Source: an uncultured Oscillospiraceae bacterium (GTDB lineage Bacteria; Bacillota; Clostridia; Oscillospirales; Oscillospiraceae). From it: 32,250 nt of DNA. Location: NCBI GenBank assembly GCA_947628805.1, contig CANRBG010000016.1:1-32250 (forward strand). The letters run 5' to 3'. The notes under the pieces were generated by a model that worked only from the letters and a program-made list of their open reading frames with translations, was not told where the DNA came from and made no database searches. The translations under genes and the position numbers were made by a program. This document shows, piece by piece, positions 21,579-29,295 of this stretch; within the stretch, counting starts at the first letter, position 1; each line of letters starts with the position of its first letter.

Positions 21579-21595
21579 GAGGCGGTGATAAAAAT

Positions 21596-22036
21596 ATGAA
21601 CATGACCAACCGGGAATATAACGAATATATCAAGGGCATGGCTCCCAAATCGCCCCTGGCGGGGGATCTGGTCAAGGCCTTTGTGGTAGGCGGGCTCATC
21701 TGCTGCCTTGGCGAGGGGCTGAGCATGCTCTATCAGGACTTCGCGGGCCTGGCCCAGGAGGACGCCGCCACGGCGGTGAGCATGACGCTGGTGTTCCTGT
21801 CCGCGCTGCTGACGGGCCTGAACGTGTACGACAAGCTGGCCCGGTTCGCCGGGGCGGGGACCCTGGTGCCCATCACGGGCTTTGCCAACTCCGTGGTGAG
21901 TCCGGCCCTGGAATTCAAGACCGAGGGGTTCATCCTGGGCACGGCGGCGAAGATGTTCACCATCGCCGGGCCGGTGATCACCTTCGGCATCACCGCCAGC
22001 GTGATCTATGGCCTCATCCTGTGCCTGCTGCAATGA
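21596..22036 (+). CDS. spoVAC: Stage V sporulation protein AC
   Basis: SpoVAC is a forespore membrane channel subunit that takes up dipicolinic acid in sporulation and releases it in germination. The 146 residues show the family pattern: YNEYIKGMAPKSPLAGDLVKAFVVGGLICCLGEG, LVFLSALLTGLNVYDKLARFAGAGTLVPITGFANSVVSPALEFKTEGFILG, and a last hydrophobic helix. The start is ATG at 21596 with AGGCGGTGA upstream. spoVAC usually sits with spoVAD and spoVAE; here neither is adjacent, and the next gene is on the opposite strand. The gene is complete and proves a spore-forming lineage. Confidence 0.93.
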   Translation: MNMTNREYNEYIKGMAPKSPLAGDLVKAFVVGGLICCLGEGLSMLYQDFAGLAQEDAATAVSMTLVFLSALLTGLNVYDKLARFAGAGTLVPITGFANSVVSPALEFKTEGFILGTAAKMFTIAGPVITFGITASVIYGLILCLLQ

Positions 22037-22064
22037 AAAAGGTCCCCGCCCAATGGGCGGGGAC
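22036..22064 (-). terminator. Terminator for the minus-strand binding-protein gene
   Basis: GTCCCCGCCC (22042-22051) and GGGCGGGGAC (22055-22064) form a 10-bp stem. On the minus strand it is followed by CTTTTT, reaching the spoVAC stop codon, so it ends transcription of the 22082-22873 gene. On plus there is no T-run. Confidence 0.75.
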
Positions 22065-22081: not shown

Positions 22082-22873
22082 TCATTTCATGTGGTACGCC
22101 GCCACCACGCTGGAGACCAGGATGCCGTCCACCTCTCCCAGCATGAGGGCGTTGAACAGGCCGTCGGTATTGGTCTGATAAATGACGGAGCCCAAGTCCT
22201 CCACAAAGCCCTTGTTCTGGTACAGCACGTCCTGATCCGCCACGGTGACGCCCAGGATCTTGCCCTTGAGATTACCCCGGCGGCGGATGTTGCTGCCGGA
22301 GCGGGATACCAGCACGTACTGGCTGGTCAGGTAGGCGGGGGAGTAGTCGAAGTCTGTGGACAGGTCCGCCTCGGGTACCGCCATGGCGATGTCGATGTTG
22401 CCGGCGTTCAGCTCGATCTCCGCGTCGGTGATGTCGATGGGATAGAAGGTGACGCCCCAGCCAAGGTAGCCGCAGATGTAGGTGATCAGGTCGATGTCGA
22501 AGCCCAGGAAACTGTCGTTCTGGATATAGCTCATGGGCACGTTGCCCAGATCCACTCCCACGGTGACGAAGCGCTGCTCCCGCTCTTCGCCCAGCTCCGC
22601 CAGCGCGTCGGCGTCGCCCTTGACGCTGATCAGGTTCTCCCCGAACCACTTGACGGACAGGGACCGCAGGGTGTTGGTGGCGGCCAGCTCCTTCATGGCC
22701 GCGGACACGAATTGCTGCAGATGGTCGCCCTTGCGGAAGGCGATGTAGTAGCTGCCCTCGCCGCTGTACTCGTCGATGACCCGATAGCCCCCCGCGCCGT
22801 AGCTGCAGCCGGCGGCGGGCAGAAGCATGGCAAGGCACAGGATAAGGCAGATACCGGCCCGCAGCGTCTTCAT
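22082..22873 (-). CDS. SBP_bac_3-like lipoprotein with apparently circularly permuted domain order
   Basis: This is an amino-acid-type binding lipoprotein of 263 residues: signal peptide with lipobox PAAGC (C23). Right after it, residues 41-79 (SYYIAFRKGDHLQQFVSAAM then KELAATNTLRSLSVKWFGE) are the segment that normally closes this family (YxIAFRKGD ... L..dGtl..i..KWFG). The family's usual beginning comes next: RFVTVGVDLGNVPMSYIQND, SFLGFDIDLITYICGYLGW, AGNIDIAMA (102-165). The second lobe follows (NLKGKILGVTVADQ, 201-214) and the chain ends at VDGILVSSVVAAYHMK, exactly where the closing segment would normally follow. The start is ATG at 22873 behind AAGGAGG. It lies downstream of an amino-acid ABC operon, so it may serve that transporter or act as a sensor. 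Confidence 0.85.
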   Translation of the reverse strand: MKTLRAGICLILCLAMLLPAAGCSYGAGGYRVIDEYSGEGSYYIAFRKGDHLQQFVSAAMKELAATNTLRSLSVKWFGENLISVKGDADALAELGEEREQRFVTVGVDLGNVPMSYIQNDSFLGFDIDLITYICGYLGWGVTFYPIDITDAEIELNAGNIDIAMAVPEADLSTDFDYSPAYLTSQYVLVSRSGSNIRRRGNLKGKILGVTVADQDVLYQNKGFVEDLGSVIYQTNTDGLFNALMLGEVDGILVSSVVAAYHMK

Positions 22874-22895
22874 GGCGCATCCTCCTTAAAAAAGT

Positions 22896-22923
22896 AAAAG
22901 CCGCACGCGATCGTGCGGCTTTT
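22896..22923. terminator. Bidirectional terminator-like stem between ABC operon and permuted binding protein
   Basis: AAAAGCCGCACG (22896-22907) and CGTGCGGCTTTT (22912-22923) form a 12-bp stem with a CGAT loop. On minus it is followed by ACTTTTTT. It lies 41 bases after the ATPase stop and only 22 bases before the next gene's ATG, so that gene is reached by read-through or by a promoter overlapping the stem (TATACT at about 22932-22927). Confidence 0.8.
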
Positions 22924-22964
22924 ATAGTATACGAAAACGGATGTAAAATCAAGGGGCTGTCCGG

Positions 22965-23750
22965 TCAATTCTGATTGTAGCTGTCCAAAAACCGCCTTGT
23001 CCGCTCCTGGGTGGGAGCGCCGATCACCTGCTCCGGGTCCCCGGATTCCACCACCACGCCTCCGTCCATGAAGATCACGTGGCTGGACACATCCCGGGCG
23101 AAGGCCATCTCGTGGGTGACGATGATCATGGTGGTCTGCCGCTGGGCCAGCTGCCGGATCACCCGCAGCACCTCCTGGGTCAGCTCCGGGTCCAGGGCGG
23201 AGGTGGGCTCGTCAAAGCACAGGATGTCCGGCCGCAGGGCCAGGGCCCGGGCGATGGCCACCCGCTGCTGCTGGCCGCCGGAGAGCTGGTGGGGGTAGTT
23301 GTCCATCCGGTCGGACAGGCCCATCTGACCCAGAAGCTGCCGGGCCTCCGCCTCGATGCGGCCGAAGAGCTCTTTTTTCCTGGCCTTGTAATCCGGGTCC
23401 TCCCTGGCCAGGAGCTTTCCCGCCAAGGTCACGTTTTCCAGGGCCGTATACTGGGGGAACAGGTTGAACGACTGGAACACCAGCCCGAAATGCAGCCGCT
23501 TGCGGCGTATCTCCGCCTCCCGCTGGGTGGCCGGGTCCGCCGCGTCGAACAGCGTCTCGCCGTTCACCGCGATGGAGCCCCCGTCGGGCCGCTCCAGAAA
23601 ATTCAGGCACCGCAGCAGGGTGGTCTTGCCGGAGCCGGAGGAGCCGATGATGGACACCACCTGCCCCCGCTCCAGGGAGAAGCTGATGTCCCGGAGGACC
23701 TGGGTCTTGCCAAAGCTCTTGCGTATGTCCTTTACTTCCAATATCGCCAT
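22965..23750 (-). CDS. Polar amino-acid ABC transporter, ATP-binding protein
   Basis: The 261-residue GlnQ/HisP-type ATPase has Walker A GSSGSGKTT, Q-loop VFQSFNLFPQ, signature LSGGQQQR, Walker B ILCFDEPTSALDPE and H-loop VTHEM. The short insert between residues ~65 and 85 (FDAADPATQREAEIRRKR) is typical of this subfamily. ATG at 23750 follows AGGAGGA. It is the third gene of the minus-strand operon binding protein-permease-ATPase, 15 bases after the permease. Confidence 0.94.
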   Translation of the reverse strand: MAILEVKDIRKSFGKTQVLRDISFSLERGQVVSIIGSSGSGKTTLLRCLNFLERPDGGSIAVNGETLFDAADPATQREAEIRRKRLHFGLVFQSFNLFPQYTALENVTLAGKLLAREDPDYKARKKELFGRIEAEARQLLGQMGLSDRMDNYPHQLSGGQQQRVAIARALALRPDILCFDEPTSALDPELTQEVLRVIRQLAQRQTTMIIVTHEMAFARDVSSHVIFMDGGVVVESGDPEQVIGAPTQERTRRFLDSYNQN

Positions 23751-23765
23751 GACACGGTCCTCCTT

Positions 23766-24452
23766 TCAGCGGAAATAGTCCAGCCGCTTTTCCAGCCGTC
23801 CCAGCGCCACGGTGACGATACCGTTGAAGATCAGGTAATACACGGCGGTGAAAAACAGCGGCCACAATGCTCCGGCGATGCCGTGGGAGCCTTTCAAAAA
23901 CGACTGGCCCGCCCAGATGATCTCCTGCAGGGCGATGATCCGGGCCAGGGCGGTGTCCTTGACCAGGGTGATGATCTCGTTGGACATGGGGGGCACGATG
24001 CGCTTGATCACCTGCAAAAGAGTCACCTTATAGAAGATCTGCCCTTTGGTCATGCCCAGCACCAGGCCCGCCTCCTGCTGGCCCACAGGTACGGACTGAA
24101 TGCCGCCCCGGTATATCTCGGAAAAGTAGCAGGCATAGTTGAAGATGAAAGCGATGGCCGAGGCCAGAAACCGCCCGGTCTCCCCGCTGCCCCAGACGTT
24201 GTGGCCCAGGACCATGCCGGGGAAGTAGTAGATGATCAGAAGCTGTATCATCAAGGGCGTGCCCCGGACGATCCAGACGACGAGCCGGGTGAACAGGCTC
24301 AGGGGCTTGAAGCGGCTCATGGAGCCGAAAGCGATCACCAGACCCAGGGGGATGGCCCCCAGGCCCGTGACGAGAAACAGCTTCAAAGTCTGCAAAAAGC
24401 CCACGTTCAGGGCGTGGACCACGATGGGGAACTGTTGGAGCATCAATTGCAT
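23766..24452 (-). CDS. Polar amino-acid ABC transporter, permease
   Basis: This membrane subunit of the HisMQ type has 228 residues and about five membrane helices. The EAA loop that contacts the ATPase is clear: YFSEIYRGGIQSVPVGQQEAGLVLGM near residues 105-130. IVRGTPLMIQLLIIYY near residue 62 is the family's conserved region. Only one permease is encoded, so the channel is probably a homodimer. The start is ATG at 24452; the nearest ribosome-site-like sequence is a modest GAGTACC. A hairpin separates it from the binding-protein gene. Confidence 0.93.
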   Translation of the reverse strand: MQLMLQQFPIVVHALNVGFLQTLKLFLVTGLGAIPLGLVIAFGSMSRFKPLSLFTRLVVWIVRGTPLMIQLLIIYYFPGMVLGHNVWGSGETGRFLASAIAFIFNYACYFSEIYRGGIQSVPVGQQEAGLVLGMTKGQIFYKVTLLQVIKRIVPPMSNEIITLVKDTALARIIALQEIIWAGQSFLKGSHGIAGALWPLFFTAVYYLIFNGIVTVALGRLEKRLDYFR

Positions 24453-24528: not shown

Positions 24529-25506
24529 TTACTTCTGCTCGATCAGGGACGCCTGTACGCCGTAGGTCTCGGCGATCTCCTCCATGGAGCCGTCGGCATA
24601 GCTCTCGGCAAAGAAGTCGTTCAGCGCGTCCGCCAGGTCGGAGCCCTTGCGGAAGCCCACGCCGTATTCCTCGCTGTTCAGGTTGACGGTGTTGATCAGA
24701 TCGTCGTAGCTGGTGCCCTCGCCTACCATGGCGGCGGCCATCAGCAGATCGATCACGGCGGCGTCCGCCGTGCCGGCCTTGACCTGCAGCAGGGCGTCGG
24801 CCTGGGTCTGGACCTCGGTGAACTCATAGCCAAGGGCCTCCACCTGCTCCTTGCCGGCGCTGCCCACCTCCACGGCGAAGACCAGATCGGCCATGTCCTC
24901 GGCGGTCTCATAGTCGCCGGCCACGTCCGCGGGCAGGATCACAGTCTGGGCGTTGTTGCAGTAAGCGTTGGAGCACTCCATGGCGGTGGTGACCTCGTCG
25001 GTGAGGGTCATGCCGTTCCACACCACGTCGATGGACTTGTTTTTCAGCTCCAGCTCCTTGTTGTCCCAGTCGATCTCCACGAACTCGGCCTCCACGCCCA
25101 GGCTCTCGGCAAAGGCCTTGGCCATGTCCGCGTCAAAGCCGATCCAGTTGCCGTCCTCGTCCTTGTAGTCCATGGGCTCGAACTCGGTGATGCCCACCAC
25201 CAGCGTGCCCTTGTCCTGGACATAGGCCAGATCGCTGTCCGCGTCGGCGGCGTCATCCGCTGCGGGTTCTTCGGCCTCGGCCGCATCCTCTTCCGCAGGC
25301 TCCTCGGCTTCTTCCTCAGCGGGCTCTTCGGTGGTTTCGGCCTCTTCCGTGGCGGGGGCTTCCGTGGCGTCCTCTTCGGCGGGGGCCTCGGTGGCTTCGG
25401 CTTCCGCTTCGGCGGGCTCCAGAACGTCGTCCTTCTTGGCCGCGCCGCAGGCGGTCACGCTCAGCAGCATCAGCGCTGCCAGGGTCAAGGCAAGTATCTT
25501 CTTCAT
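24529..25506 (-). CDS. Amino-acid ABC transporter substrate-binding lipoprotein (SBP_bac_3) with long acidic linker
   Basis: The 325-residue lipoprotein has signal peptide and lipobox SVTAC (C20). Residues 28-92 are a low-complexity spacer of Glu, Ala, Pro, Thr and Asp (blocks such as EEPAEEDA), probably an extended tether through the wall. The binding domain follows in the usual order: GTLVVGITEFEPMDYKDEDG, WIGFDADMAKAFAESLGVE, KSIDVVWNGMTLTDE, the second lobe, and last EEYGVGFRKGSDLADALNDF with a closing helix. The start is ATG at 25506; GGAGGA lies about seven bases before. It is the first gene of the ABC operon. The ligand is a polar amino acid, identity unknown. Confidence 0.93.
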   Translation of the reverse strand: MKKILALTLAALMLLSVTACGAAKKDDVLEPAEAEAEATEAPAEEDATEAPATEEAETTEEPAEEEAEEPAEEDAAEAEEPAADDAADADSDLAYVQDKGTLVVGITEFEPMDYKDEDGNWIGFDADMAKAFAESLGVEAEFVEIDWDNKELELKNKSIDVVWNGMTLTDEVTTAMECSNAYCNNAQTVILPADVAGDYETAEDMADLVFAVEVGSAGKEQVEALGYEFTEVQTQADALLQVKAGTADAAVIDLLMAAAMVGEGTSYDDLINTVNLNSEEYGVGFRKGSDLADALNDFFAESYADGSMEEIAETYGVQASLIEQK

Positions 25507-25613: not shown

Positions 25614-25639
25614 CCATGCCTTGCGCGGCATGGTACAAT
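25614..25639 (+). promoter_or_regulatory. -10 element with adjoining inverted repeat upstream of the response regulator
   Basis: CCATGCC (25614-25620) and GGCATGG (25627-25633) are perfect complements around TTGCGC, directly followed by TACAAT (25634-25639) with an upstream TG (extended -10). The repeat fills the spacer region, so it is a likely operator, perhaps for self-control by the regulator encoded 55 bases downstream. Confidence 0.5.
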
Positions 25640-25693
25640 TGGTTGAGAATAGACAACTCTCTGCCTTTTGAACACGAAGGAGGCATATGCGTC

Positions 25694-26383
25694 ATGGCGA
25701 AAAAGGCGTTGATCGTAGAGGACGACGGCAACATCTCGGAGCTTTTGCGGCTGTATCTGGAGCGGGACGGGTTCGAGGTGATGCAGGCGGCGGACGGCGG
25801 GCGCGGGGTGGACCTGGCCCGGAGCTGGACGCCGGACATCGTGCTGCTGGACATCATGCTGCCGGTGAAGGACGGCTGGCAGGTCTGCCGGGAGGTCCGG
25901 GGCTTTTCCAAGGCGCCCATCGTGATGCTCACCGCCAAGGGGGAGACCCGGGACAAGGTGGCGGGCCTGGAGATGGGGGCCGACGACTATATCACCAAGC
26001 CCTTTGAGATAAAGGAGCTGCTGGCCCGGGTCCACGCGGTGCTGCGCCGGACCGACGGGGCCCCGGAGGAAAAGAGCCGCCGGCTGGAATTCGACAAGCT
26101 GGTGGTGGATCTGGATTCCTATGAGCTGATCGTGAACGGCACGAAGATCGACACGCCCCCCAAGGAGATGGAGCTTTTGTTCCATCTGGCCTCCGCCCCC
26201 AACCGGGTCTACACCCGTAACCAGCTTCTGGACGAGGTATGGGGCTTTGACTACTTCGGGGACTCCCGGACCGTGGACGTGCACATCAAGCGTCTGCGGG
26301 AGAAGCTGGAGGGGGTATCCGATCAGTGGCGGCTGAAGACCGTCTGGGGCGTGGGATATAAATTCGAGGTCGGGGAAGCCTAG
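25694..26383 (+). CDS. OmpR/PhoB-family response regulator
   Basis: The protein has 229 residues. The receiver domain (1-120) has the acidic pair D10/D11, phospho-acceptor D53 in VLLDIMLP, T80 and K102 in ITKPFE. The C-terminal winged helix (about 130-227) shows PPKEMELLFHLA, YTRNQLLDEVWG and SRTVDVHIKRLREKL, then WRLKTVWGVGYKFE. The start is ATG at 25694 with GAAGGAGG ten bases upstream; an ATG at 25687 is in another frame. The kinase gene starts three bases after its stop, so the pair is one unit. Gene order regulator-kinase-HtrA protease resembles the CssRS secretion-stress module, which is an inference. Confidence 0.95.
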   Translation: MAKKALIVEDDGNISELLRLYLERDGFEVMQAADGGRGVDLARSWTPDIVLLDIMLPVKDGWQVCREVRGFSKAPIVMLTAKGETRDKVAGLEMGADDYITKPFEIKELLARVHAVLRRTDGAPEEKSRRLEFDKLVVDLDSYELIVNGTKIDTPPKEMELLFHLASAPNRVYTRNQLLDEVWGFDYFGDSRTVDVHIKRLREKLEGVSDQWRLKTVWGVGYKFEVGEA

Positions 26384-26386
26384 CCC

Positions 26387-27856
26387 ATGAAGCGCAGCGT
26401 CTTTTTTCGGAACTTCATGATCACCACCGCCATGTTCGCGGCCTGCTTCGTGGCCTTCGGCGTGACCATGTTCCTGATGGGCCGGGCGTTTCTGATCCGG
26501 GAAAAGCAGGCGAATCTCTACGCCACGGCGGACGAGGTGCGCCTGTACGCCGAGGCCGTCCACGGGGACGGGGAAGAGGGACTGGACAGCTGGGACCTGC
26601 GGATGAATCTGGCGGCCATCGCCCAGAGCACCGGGGACCACATCTTTCTGTGCGACGCCTCCGGCACGGTGGTGTCCACCTCCGACCGGGAGGACGCCGC
26701 CCCCTACCTGGGCCGGCAGATGCCGGCGGCGGTGATGGAGCAGCTGGCCGAGACGGGCGGTTACCGGGGCGTGACAGACCTTGACGGTTTTTATCCGGGG
26801 ATGTATTATGTTGTGGCCGAGCCCGTGGCCGGCGCGGACGGAGAGACGGCGGGGTACGTGTTCGTCAACTACGCCGGCTCCGGCTTTTTCAAGGTCTGGG
26901 GCGGGTTTTCCATGGCGTTCATCCTGGTGGCCGTAGGGGTGCTGGGGCTGGCGGTGGCCTTTGAGTACGCCAACGACCGGCGGCTGGCCCGGCCTCTGAA
27001 CGAGATGGCAGAGGCGGCCCACCGATTTGCCCGGGGCGATTACAGCGCCCGGGTGAGCCCTTATCCGGACGAGGACGAGATCGGCACCCTGACCCAGGCC
27101 TTCAACACCATGGCCGACAGCCTGGAGCGCAACGAGTCCCGCCGCCGGGAGTTCATCGCCAACGTGTCCCACGAGCTGCGCACGCCCATGACCTCCATCG
27201 CCGGCTTCGCCGACGGGCTGCTGGACGGGACCATCCCCCCGGAAGAAGAGAAAAAATACCTGCAAACCATCTCCTCGGAGACGAAGCGGCTGGGCAGGCT
27301 TGTCCGGAGCATGCTGGATATGAGCCGGCTCCAGGACGGGGACCCGGCCCGGCGGGAGCAGGTGTTCGACCTGGGGGAGACGGTGCTGCAGACCCTGCTG
27401 AACTTCGAGAGCCGGGTGGACGAAAAGCACATGAGCGTGGATCTGGACATGCCGGAGGACGCCCTGCGGGTGAAAGGCGACGTGGACGCCTTGACACGGG
27501 TGGTGTATAATCTTCTGGACAACGCCATCAAATTCGCCGACGAGGGCTCGGAGCTGTCCGTGAGCCTGTGGAAAGAAAACGGCAAGGCCTACACGGCCAT
27601 CCAGGACCGGGGCCAGACCATCCCCCGGGAGGAGCTGCCGCTGATCTTCGATCGGTTCCACAAGGCGGATAAGTCCCGCAGTCAGGACCGGGAGGGCGTG
27701 GGCCTGGGCCTGTACATGGTCCGGCAGATCCTGGCCGCCCACGATCAGGACATCTTCGTCACCAGCGAAAACGGCATGACCGTGTTCACCTTTACCCTGG
27801 CTCTGGCGGAGCCGGGCCGGGTCCCGGTCAGAACGGACGCAAATATGGGCCAGTAG
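26387..27856 (+). CDS. Sensor histidine kinase
   Basis: The 489-residue, two-helix membrane kinase has TM1 at about 10-33 and an external sensor region of ~135 residues with a PAS-like strand pattern (IFLCDASGTVVSTSD). TM2 lies at about 173-194, followed by a HAMP linker (LARPLNEMAEAAHRFARGDYSARV). The H box is FIANVSHELRTPM with phosphorylated H262. The ATPase domain has the N box NLLDNAIKF (about 375-383), G1 box DRGQTI (408-412) and G2 box GVGLGLYMV. The G1 box lacks the second glycine of DxGxGI, a variant I recall in some Firmicute kinases. The start is ATG at 26387 with no strong ribosome site, so translation is probably coupled to the regulator gene. Confidence 0.93.
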   Translation: MKRSVFFRNFMITTAMFAACFVAFGVTMFLMGRAFLIREKQANLYATADEVRLYAEAVHGDGEEGLDSWDLRMNLAAIAQSTGDHIFLCDASGTVVSTSDREDAAPYLGRQMPAAVMEQLAETGGYRGVTDLDGFYPGMYYVVAEPVAGADGETAGYVFVNYAGSGFFKVWGGFSMAFILVAVGVLGLAVAFEYANDRRLARPLNEMAEAAHRFARGDYSARVSPYPDEDEIGTLTQAFNTMADSLERNESRRREFIANVSHELRTPMTSIAGFADGLLDGTIPPEEEKKYLQTISSETKRLGRLVRSMLDMSRLQDGDPARREQVFDLGETVLQTLLNFESRVDEKHMSVDLDMPEDALRVKGDVDALTRVVYNLLDNAIKFADEGSELSVSLWKENGKAYTAIQDRGQTIPREELPLIFDRFHKADKSRSQDREGVGLGLYMVRQILAAHDQDIFVTSENGMTVFTFTLALAEPGRVPVRTDANMGQ

Positions 27857-27906
27857 ATCTGGCTATAATGATAATGACAGAAACACGCAAGTGAGGAGGA
27901 GATCCG

Positions 27907-29295
27907 ATGCCTCAGAACATGGAGCACCAGAGCGGCCTGTATGGCCAGGACCCCGCCGGCGCCAGCGCCTGGTATCAGCCCGCCGCGCCCCGGCCCGAGC
28001 CCGCGGCGTCCCCGCGCCGGGATATGACCGACGGGCAGCGGCGCCGCCATCGCCGGACCAAGGCGGTGACGCTGACCCTGTGCGCGCTGCTGGTCTGCGC
28101 CGCGGCTGCGGTGGTCGTGCTCAACAGCTCTCTTCTCCAGCGCATCCAGGACCTGCAGACAGCCGAGGACCGGCTGTACGGCGGTGCGGGGACGGATTTT
28201 GACTTTTCCTTCGGCTCCGACAGCGATATCTACGGCGCGCTGCCGGGCACGGAGTATGACGATTATAAGGAATATTTTGAAAACTACTATTCCTCCACCA
28301 ACGAGATCGGCCTGCCCGCCGCCCCCACCGGCACCGGCGTGACCCTGAAGCTGAACACCCCCCGTGGAGAGAAGCTGTCCCTGCAGGAGGTCTACGACAA
28401 GGTCAGCCCCGCCGTGGTGGGCATCACCACCTATATCGACAAGCTGGAATACAGCTGGGGCACCGGCGTGGTCTTTGACGCGGACGCGGGCTATATCGTC
28501 ACCAACACCCACATCCTCCAGGGCTGCGACGGCGCCAAGGTCATCCTGACCGATGGCCGGGAGCTGGAGGCCCGGCTGGTGGGCGCGGACGAGGCCAGCG
28601 ATATCGCCGTGCTACAGGTGGAGGATAAGGGCGAGACGCTGACGGCGGCGGAATTCGGCCGGTCTGCCTCCCTGCGGGTGGGAGACGAGGTCTCCGCCAT
28701 CGGCAACCCCCTGAGTCAGGCCTATACCGGAACCATGACCAACGGCATCATCTCCGCCATCGACCGGGACGTGACCTACGGCGGCCACTCCATGACCCTG
28801 CTGCAGACCAACGCCGCCCTGAACGAGGGCAATTCCGGCGGGCCGCTGATCAACGGGGAGGGCCAGGTCATCGGCATCACCAATATGAAGATCATGTCCG
28901 GCTACTTCACCACCGTGGAGGGCATCGGCTTCGCCATCCCCTCGGCGGTGGTCAAGCGGATCGCGGACCAGCTCATCGAAAACGGCATGATCCCCGGCGA
29001 GCCCACCATCGGCATCGTGGCGGGGGCGGTGGGCGCGGAGGCCCGGGCCCTGTACGACCTGCCGGCGGGCGTGTACGTGTCCGAGGTCAGCGAGGGCTCC
29101 GACGCGTTGGAGAAGGGCCTGCAGGTGGGCGACGTGATCACGAAGGTGAACGGCGAGGCCGTCTCCACGGTGGAGCAGGTGAACCTGATGAAGGAGGACA
29201 TGGAGGTGGGCGACGGCCTGACCCTCACCGTCTTCCGGGATGGGGACACCTTCGAGCTGGAGGTGGAGCTGGTGGACAAGGCGGATATAAAATGA
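27907..29295 (+). CDS. Membrane-anchored HtrA-type serine protease with PDZ domain
   Basis: This surface quality-control protease has 462 residues. It begins with a ~45-residue cytoplasmic Pro/Arg-rich stretch, one membrane anchor (about 52-73) and a Tyr/Asp-rich spacer. The trypsin-like domain has the full triad: H202 in TNTHIL, D232 in ASDIAVLQ and S310 in GNSGGPL. A PDZ domain follows from about residue 355 (IGIVAG, PAGVYVSEVSEGSDALEKGLQVGDVITKVNGEAV). The start is ATG at 27907 behind GAGGAGGAG. It lies 50 bases after the kinase and is probably under its control; a TATAAT in the gap (27864-27869) has no matching -35. It degrades or refolds misfolded exported proteins by family analogy. Confidence 0.94.
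   Translation: MPQNMEHQSGLYGQDPAGASAWYQPAAPRPEPAASPRRDMTDGQRRRHRRTKAVTLTLCALLVCAAAAVVVLNSSLLQRIQDLQTAEDRLYGGAGTDFDFSFGSDSDIYGALPGTEYDDYKEYFENYYSSTNEIGLPAAPTGTGVTLKLNTPRGEKLSLQEVYDKVSPAVVGITTYIDKLEYSWGTGVVFDADAGYIVTNTHILQGCDGAKVILTDGRELEARLVGADEASDIAVLQVEDKGETLTAAEFGRSASLRVGDEVSAIGNPLSQAYTGTMTNGIISAIDRDVTYGGHSMTLLQTNAALNEGNSGGPLINGEGQVIGITNMKIMSGYFTTVEGIGFAIPSAVVKRIADQLIENGMIPGEPTIGIVAGAVGAEARALYDLPAGVYVSEVSEGSDALEKGLQVGDVITKVNGEAVSTVEQVNLMKEDMEVGDGLTLTVFRDGDTFELEVELVDKADIK

Follow-up and report, generated by a model that had tools for sequence, protein, structure and literature searches.

A circularly permuted cluster F substrate-binding lipoprotein in an importer operon of an uncultured Oscillospiraceae bacterium

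Introduction

The topology of the substrate-binding proteins (SBPs) of ATP-binding cassette (ABC) importers is regarded as fixed, and sequence profiles read a permuted SBP as incomplete. A natural circularly permuted binding lipoprotein of an ABC importer has been described in Treponema, namely the glucose-binding TpMglB-2 (Tp0684) of 'Type Ic / cluster Bc'; its authors (PMC4990184) traced related proteins to Gram-positive bacteria, including many gut commensals, and proposed membrane tethering as a possible reason for the permutation. In cluster F, a circular permutant of the lysine/arginine/ornithine (LAO)-binding protein was engineered for Förster resonance energy transfer (FRET) sensors (PMC5087393, citing Okada et al. 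2009); it still bound lysine, its Kd in the sensor being 107 uM, which by the authors' estimate is a 36-fold loss of affinity relative to the native protein. Here we analysed a 32,250-nucleotide stretch of DNA from an uncultured Oscillospiraceae bacterium (contig CANRBG010000016.1; hereafter the window), in which the gene at 22082-22873 encodes a cluster F (type II, SBP_bac_3) binding protein with a circularly permuted chain.

The window protein shares with the cluster F proteins GlnH, HisJ and the first substrate-binding domain (SBD1) of GlnPQ the PF00497 family, a predicted two-lobed fold, a lipobox and an importer operon. It differs from them in carrying its segments in the order C-A-B instead of A-B-C (A, lobe 1; B, lobe 2; C, closing segment), in its putative lobe-2 anchor and in the loss of the Arg and Asp that contact the ligand. 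TpMglB-2 is a type I / cluster B protein with another fold class and another cut, whereas the Clostridia proteins belong to cluster F, are cut in either of two zones and changed their order repeatedly. A cluster B (type I) sugar-binding fold was not found for the window protein, its Pfam and PDB sequence matches being amino-acid SBPs of the SBP_bac_3 kind. The engineered LAO permutant is man-made, with a cut in the interdomain linker (as in the natural B-C-A proteins below) and a synthetic (GGS)4 joint. The initial annotation of the gene, made from the sequence alone, knew of no described case in this family. For cluster F, searches of an open-access library showed no natural permutant, PMC6588880, PMC7683729 and PMC2588589 included; a natural permuted binding protein from a different class is in print (PMC4990184).

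Segment order of the window protein

The start codon is preceded by the ribosome-binding site AAGGAGGA, and the gene is divided as follows.

22082..22873, minus strand: circularly permuted SBP lipoprotein gene, 263 amino acids plus stop (ATG at 22873, stop at 22082)
22805..22873, minus strand: signal peptide and lipobox, residues 1-23, with the lipid-anchored Cys23 (alignment of 35 permuted proteins)
22622..22786, minus strand: segment C, residues 30-84, comprising the last lobe-2 strand, the hinge and the two closing helices of lobe 1 (PDB match, AlphaFold2 model, profile)
22574..22621, minus strand: new internal joint, residues 85-100, bridging the old C- and N-termini (model, frame scoring)
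22304..22573, minus strand: segment A, residues 101-190, lobe 1 with a hinge strand at its end (frame scoring, model)
22088..22294, minus strand: segment B, residues 194-262, lobe 2 (frame scoring, model)

Segment C, which forms the C-terminal part of canonical proteins, spans residues about 27-84 of the permuted protein, after a lipobox whose Cys23 is invariant in all 35 aligned permuted proteins. The chain terminates at AAYHMK, in the loop past the last lobe-2 helix, and both new termini map to the lobe-2 loop that connects the final helix of that lobe to its final strand. A profile hidden Markov model (HMM) of 229 positions was built from 31 canonical proteins only. Residues 27-83 of the native chain matched HMM positions 170-227 (27.9 bits) and residues 104-263 matched positions 3-167 (84.3 bits), with just two positions unmatched at the cut site. 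These ranges confirmed the initial annotation, which had placed the closing segment just after the lipobox and before lobe 1, with AAYHMK as the chain end. It had also proposed a profile search with the rotated sequence; rotation merged the two matches into a single one of 121.8 bits, a gain of 37.5 bits, and the largest gain among 500 segment shuffles was 11.8 bits. Furthermore, rotation raised the score of 45/45 distinct permuted representatives (median about +40 bits) and lowered that of all 31 canonical controls by 47 to 91 bits (median -77). Both parts of the window protein are homologous to one canonical chain, rotated and without duplication, as expected of a natural circular permutant.

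Searches with other tools revealed the same arrangement. Pfam assigned the protein to SBP_bac_3 (PF00497) with 66.8 bits against a cut-off of 26.4 (E 2e-18), the main match to its family models omitting the end segment; the order of that family, lobe 1 - lobe 2 - closing segment, is replaced by closing segment - lobe 1 - lobe 2. In phmmer, canonical proteins from the loci L050, L052, L056 and L017 matched the window protein as two swapped stretches (for L050, query 84-262 first and query 38-85 second), and its orthologues matched over the whole length. A PDB search paired residues 14-175 of AncQR (4zv1) with query 105-262 and its last 52 residues with query 29-79, the latter match being weak alone (13.0 bits). 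The AlphaFold2 model (predicted local distance difference test score, pLDDT, 89.8; predicted template modelling score, pTM, 0.80) has its secondary-structure elements in the rotated order, and the permuted protein is predicted to fold as the usual two-lobed type II flytrap. As an indirect check on the place of residues 41-80, which the initial annotation had named as a refuting point, the model was aligned to GlnPQ SBD1: model residues 99-263 paired with its residues 26-193, and the C-terminal part of the canonical protein had no counterpart. Given the rotated profile match, the confident rotated-order fold and the homologues with the same order, the circular permutation put forward at the outset is upheld.

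Conservation and distribution

Within the genus, the permuted SBP is present in 32 of 35 genomes, the source genome included, and one genome (G006) carries two copies, giving 33 loci in total. Their products are 53 to 90 percent identical to the window protein, and the ratio of nonsynonymous to synonymous substitution rates (dN/dS) was 0.06-0.23 in 11/11 close pairs, indicating purifying selection.

All frames in fetched loci were scored for segment order, with samples of the order (394 genomes) and the class (391). The resulting counts are lower bounds, not frequencies, and cover fetched loci among the matches listed, with at most six candidates scored per genome, after removal of duplicates and of five frames with other or partial patterns. 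A survey of homologues, also suggested by the initial annotation, gave at least 82 distinct C-A-B proteins in at least 77 genomes (32 within the genus, 22 elsewhere in the order and a further 23 in the class), at least 61 A-B-C and at least seven B-C-A proteins, at least five tandem ABCABC proteins, and at least one each of the arrays BCABCA and BCABCABCABCA. At E <= 1e-72 a sample of 398 genomes from the phylum yielded 21 matches, all canonical by range, and the class sample at least 17 full-length permuted rows, a comparison that would miss more divergent permutants and, its query coming from the window's order, favours the class over the phylum. The joint between segments C and A has a median length of 18 residues (range 15-27; all C-A-B frames scored, duplicates included).

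Outside the genus, permease and ATPase genes then follow on the same strand for 36 of 49 C-A-B proteins (L049 of the genus included); a permease only was found for four and neither for nine, some loci being short. The B-C-A permutants (L131, L132, L169-L172 and L052:6134-7000) are cut at the hinge from lobe 1 to lobe 2, and each has a lipobox; in 7/7 cases a permease and an ATPase follow on the same strand. The B-C-A structure was predicted with confidence (pLDDT 86.5, pTM 0.80, 7 sequences), the last third of the model matching domain 1 of Thermotoga ArgBP. The cuts seen fall in two zones only. C-A-B chains end at HMM positions 163-172 (the contig-end fragment L173 at 124), and most of them begin to match at 152-179 (outliers L049 at 113 and the fragment L120 at 184), a start that is less sharp since signal peptide and linker may be pulled into the match. 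For B-C-A chains, the end falls at positions 91-97 and the start at 94-107. The fold thus occurs naturally in each of its three rotations, and canonical sister proteins allow a direct comparison.

The two arrays are SBP-permease fusions, BCABCABCABCA at L051:617-4288 (plus strand) and BCABCA at L057:2604-5999 (plus strand), both with lobe 2 and the closing segment first and lobe 1 last, directly before the membrane part; their two terminal pieces could together complete a single domain. At L139 (genome G659), the permuted SBP gene has an in-frame TAG in the listed match.

Origin of the permuted order

On a 92-row tree the C-A-B label required 10 changes, and well-supported branches force 8 of these; the B-C-A label required three, all forced; a quick tree gave 11 C-A-B changes (7 forced), as did a 67-row tree with long branches removed (8 forced). 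Such changes are gains or reversals, not told apart, on trees whose canonical rows were sampled solely as matches to permuted queries or neighbours. For the 67-row tree, the approximately unbiased (AU) test rejected a single C-A-B clade (p about 1e-42), a result that concerns the other permutants, as this tree omits 25 of the 92 rows, namely the window's genus, L112, L121, L002, the arrays and the tandems. Well-supported pairs of permuted and canonical sisters are L048 with L161 and L116 with L053. The placement of the window's own lineage is unsure, as long branches meet. Altogether, the trees indicate that segment order changed repeatedly in Clostridia.

The permuted gene probably arose when duplicated copies were fused in frame and the fusion was trimmed at either end, a course that probably recurred in Clostridia. 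In GlnPQ-type tandem fusions the canonical order is kept within each domain. These SBD-SBD-permease fusions (6h30) hold the same domain in fused copies and are a plausible permutation intermediate. The case would represent recurrent circular permutation within a single-domain family, with candidate intermediates.

Tether, ligand pocket and proposed role

In the window protein the lipid sits six residues ahead of the last lobe-2 strand; the permuted protein would therefore be tethered by lobe 2, unlike canonical proteins, which are tethered by lobe 1. Both C-A-B and B-C-A orders probably put the amino end at lobe 2. The median Cys-to-core spacing was 26 in canonical representatives (lipobox found in 29/31), 8 in the other permutants (29/32) and 5 in the genus (13/13). 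Once the canonical N-terminal helix was allowed for, the difference shrank to 19 vs 8 (p 0.034, uncorrected for relatedness), and we treat tether shortness as a weak indicator of permutation in general.

In GlnH, an Arg and an Asp hold the alpha-carboxylate and alpha-amino groups of the ligand. At these positions (GlnH numbering) the window's family has Arg in 0/33 and Asp in 0/33 proteins (Ser in 32, Thr in one), making the initial label 'amino-acid-binding' doubtful for this branch. Other C-A-B proteins have Arg in 34/46 and Asp in 45/46, L112 and L121, counted apart, in 1/2 and 2/2, and B-C-A proteins both residues in 7/7. Since many permutants hold the SBP position of an importer operon and keep their pockets, permutation as such seems not to abolish function; the window's family would be a further step, an extra lipoprotein with an altered cleft.

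The permuted gene is the last of an operon in the order canonical SBP, permease, ATPase, permuted SBP.

24529..25506, minus strand: canonical-order SBP lipoprotein, first operon gene (Pfam, frame scoring)
23766..24452, minus strand: ABC permease (PF00528)
22965..23750, minus strand: ABC ATPase of the importer operon (PF00005)
22895..22924, minus strand: hairpin of 13 pairs with a T-run, between the ATPase and permuted genes, terminator- or attenuator-like
22042..22064, minus strand: terminator-like hairpin past the permuted gene

The normal order of the first gene product, noted in the initial annotation as an internal control, was verified by Pfam and frame scoring. This type of canonical SBP retains the Asp in 28/28 proteins and has the Arg in 0/28 (Val in 27, Ala in one); its lack of the carboxylate-binding Arg suggests that the importer may take up something other than an ordinary alpha-amino acid. 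A same-strand ATPase lies at most 131 nucleotides upstream of the permuted gene in 27/33 genus loci. We propose that the permuted SBP is a second, accessory receptor for the importer encoded by the preceding operon genes, with a ligand other than a plain alpha-amino acid, given that the gripping Arg and Asp are gone; from sequence we rate this role as just short of an even chance. The overall description, a permuted cluster F lipoprotein with two lobes and a lobe-2 tether that acts as an accessory receptor and arose by duplication, fusion and trimming, is in our judgement quite probable.

Several observations weigh against this description. The rotation gain was only 1.4 bits in L112, 1.7 in the contig-end fragment L173 and 8.6 in L121, all three below the 11.8 bits reached by shuffling, and a fused ancestor of the window's own lineage was not found among the loci examined. 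In the genus, the gap between ATPase and permuted gene is 864 nucleotides in 2/33 loci, and a same-strand importer ATPase is absent upstream in 4/33. L053 and L059 lie near a different importer type; partnership with one importer is thus not strict. The T-run hairpin also stands between the ATPase and the permuted gene. Its stem GCCGCAC..GTGCGGC is present in 8/27 operon loci with differing loops, and the number of hairpin plus T-run sites in the region is not above that in shuffled sequence.

Alternative explanations

The main rival to the accessory receptor is a sensory or structural role, in which the permuted SBP folds without serving transport and, its cleft binding no free amino acid, acts as a sensor or accessory lipoprotein, for example with the adjacent module of response regulator, histidine kinase and HtrA protease (25616-29295, divergent from the SBP operon). 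The pocket loss in 33/33 proteins would suit it. A close match of the window's response regulator adjoins the operon in 27/33 genus loci as fetched, with kinase and HtrA protease after it wherever the locus extends far enough; moreover, in another genus (g36), L121 holds a pocket-poor permutant beside an HtrA - histidine kinase - response regulator module, in a locus where no importer was found, and L122, from a second g36 species, has an HtrA-like gene nearby. Against these stand the importer ATPase preceding 27/33 genus copies, the lack of an HtrA match in the L112 and L123 loci, and the differing layouts of L121 and L122 within one genus, where adjacency may be plain inheritance. We regard the sensory role as unlikely, if worth keeping in view. 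Far less credible is a broken remnant, named by the initial annotation as a refuting case, in which a truncated second copy would carry at its 5' end the tail of an upstream copy since deleted, the product being unstable. Its layout is what a trimmed tandem duplication might leave, but 33 loci keep that layout and 11/11 pairs are under purifying selection, which speaks against a deleted copy as the source of a leftover 5' part, and this refuting case fails; with the invariant lipobox and the confident model, these data refute recent decay and rule out a pseudogene, and we give this reading almost no weight. A segment-swapped dimer, the moved segment completing the lobe of a partner, is also very improbable: the 16-residue joint could in principle reach a partner, yet the single chain was predicted with a pTM of 0.80, and natural joints of 15-27 residues exceed the 12-residue (GGS)4 joint that sufficed in the engineered cluster F permutant (PMC5087393).

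The permuted order might also lack adaptive meaning, duplication, fusion and trimming being frequent in multi-copy SBP genes and the product tolerated. Consistent with this are the repeated changes of order on the trees, the tandem fused SBPs in the same bacterial order and the pocket residues kept by most permutants, whose function seemingly continues unchanged. Cuts in only two zones, both putting the amino end at lobe 2 as judged from the fold, argue otherwise, as does the contrast at E <= 1e-72 between at least 17 permuted rows in 391 class genomes and 0/21 matches in 398 phylum genomes, which suggests that rearrangement is not equally common throughout, although a query from the window's order favours such a difference. 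On balance, we see the non-adaptive reading as a strong contender that falls somewhat below even likelihood. The opposite and more ambitious view, that cluster F SBPs were re-circularised many times in Clostridia at two zones, the lobe-2 anchor being kept by selection on the tethered lobe and the window's family being an added, pocket-altered second receptor, is speculative and probably too strong. If true, the tethered lobe would set the orientation of the flytrap toward the importer, and A-B-C, C-A-B and B-C-A would form a natural permutation experiment in one class. The effect of tether position and chain ends on docking, ligand affinity and folding becomes testable with these proteins; on such questions, the open-access texts available to us offered only engineered permutants and one Treponema structure.

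Other features of the locus

A SpoVAC gene (21593-22036, plus strand) is convergent with the permuted SBP gene. Among the other fetched genus loci, SpoVAC adjoins it in L004, lies at a greater distance in L005, L006, L008 and L011, and falls beyond the fetched range in the rest. The canonical SBP of the window (24529-25506) has a long acidic, Glu/Ala-rich tether.
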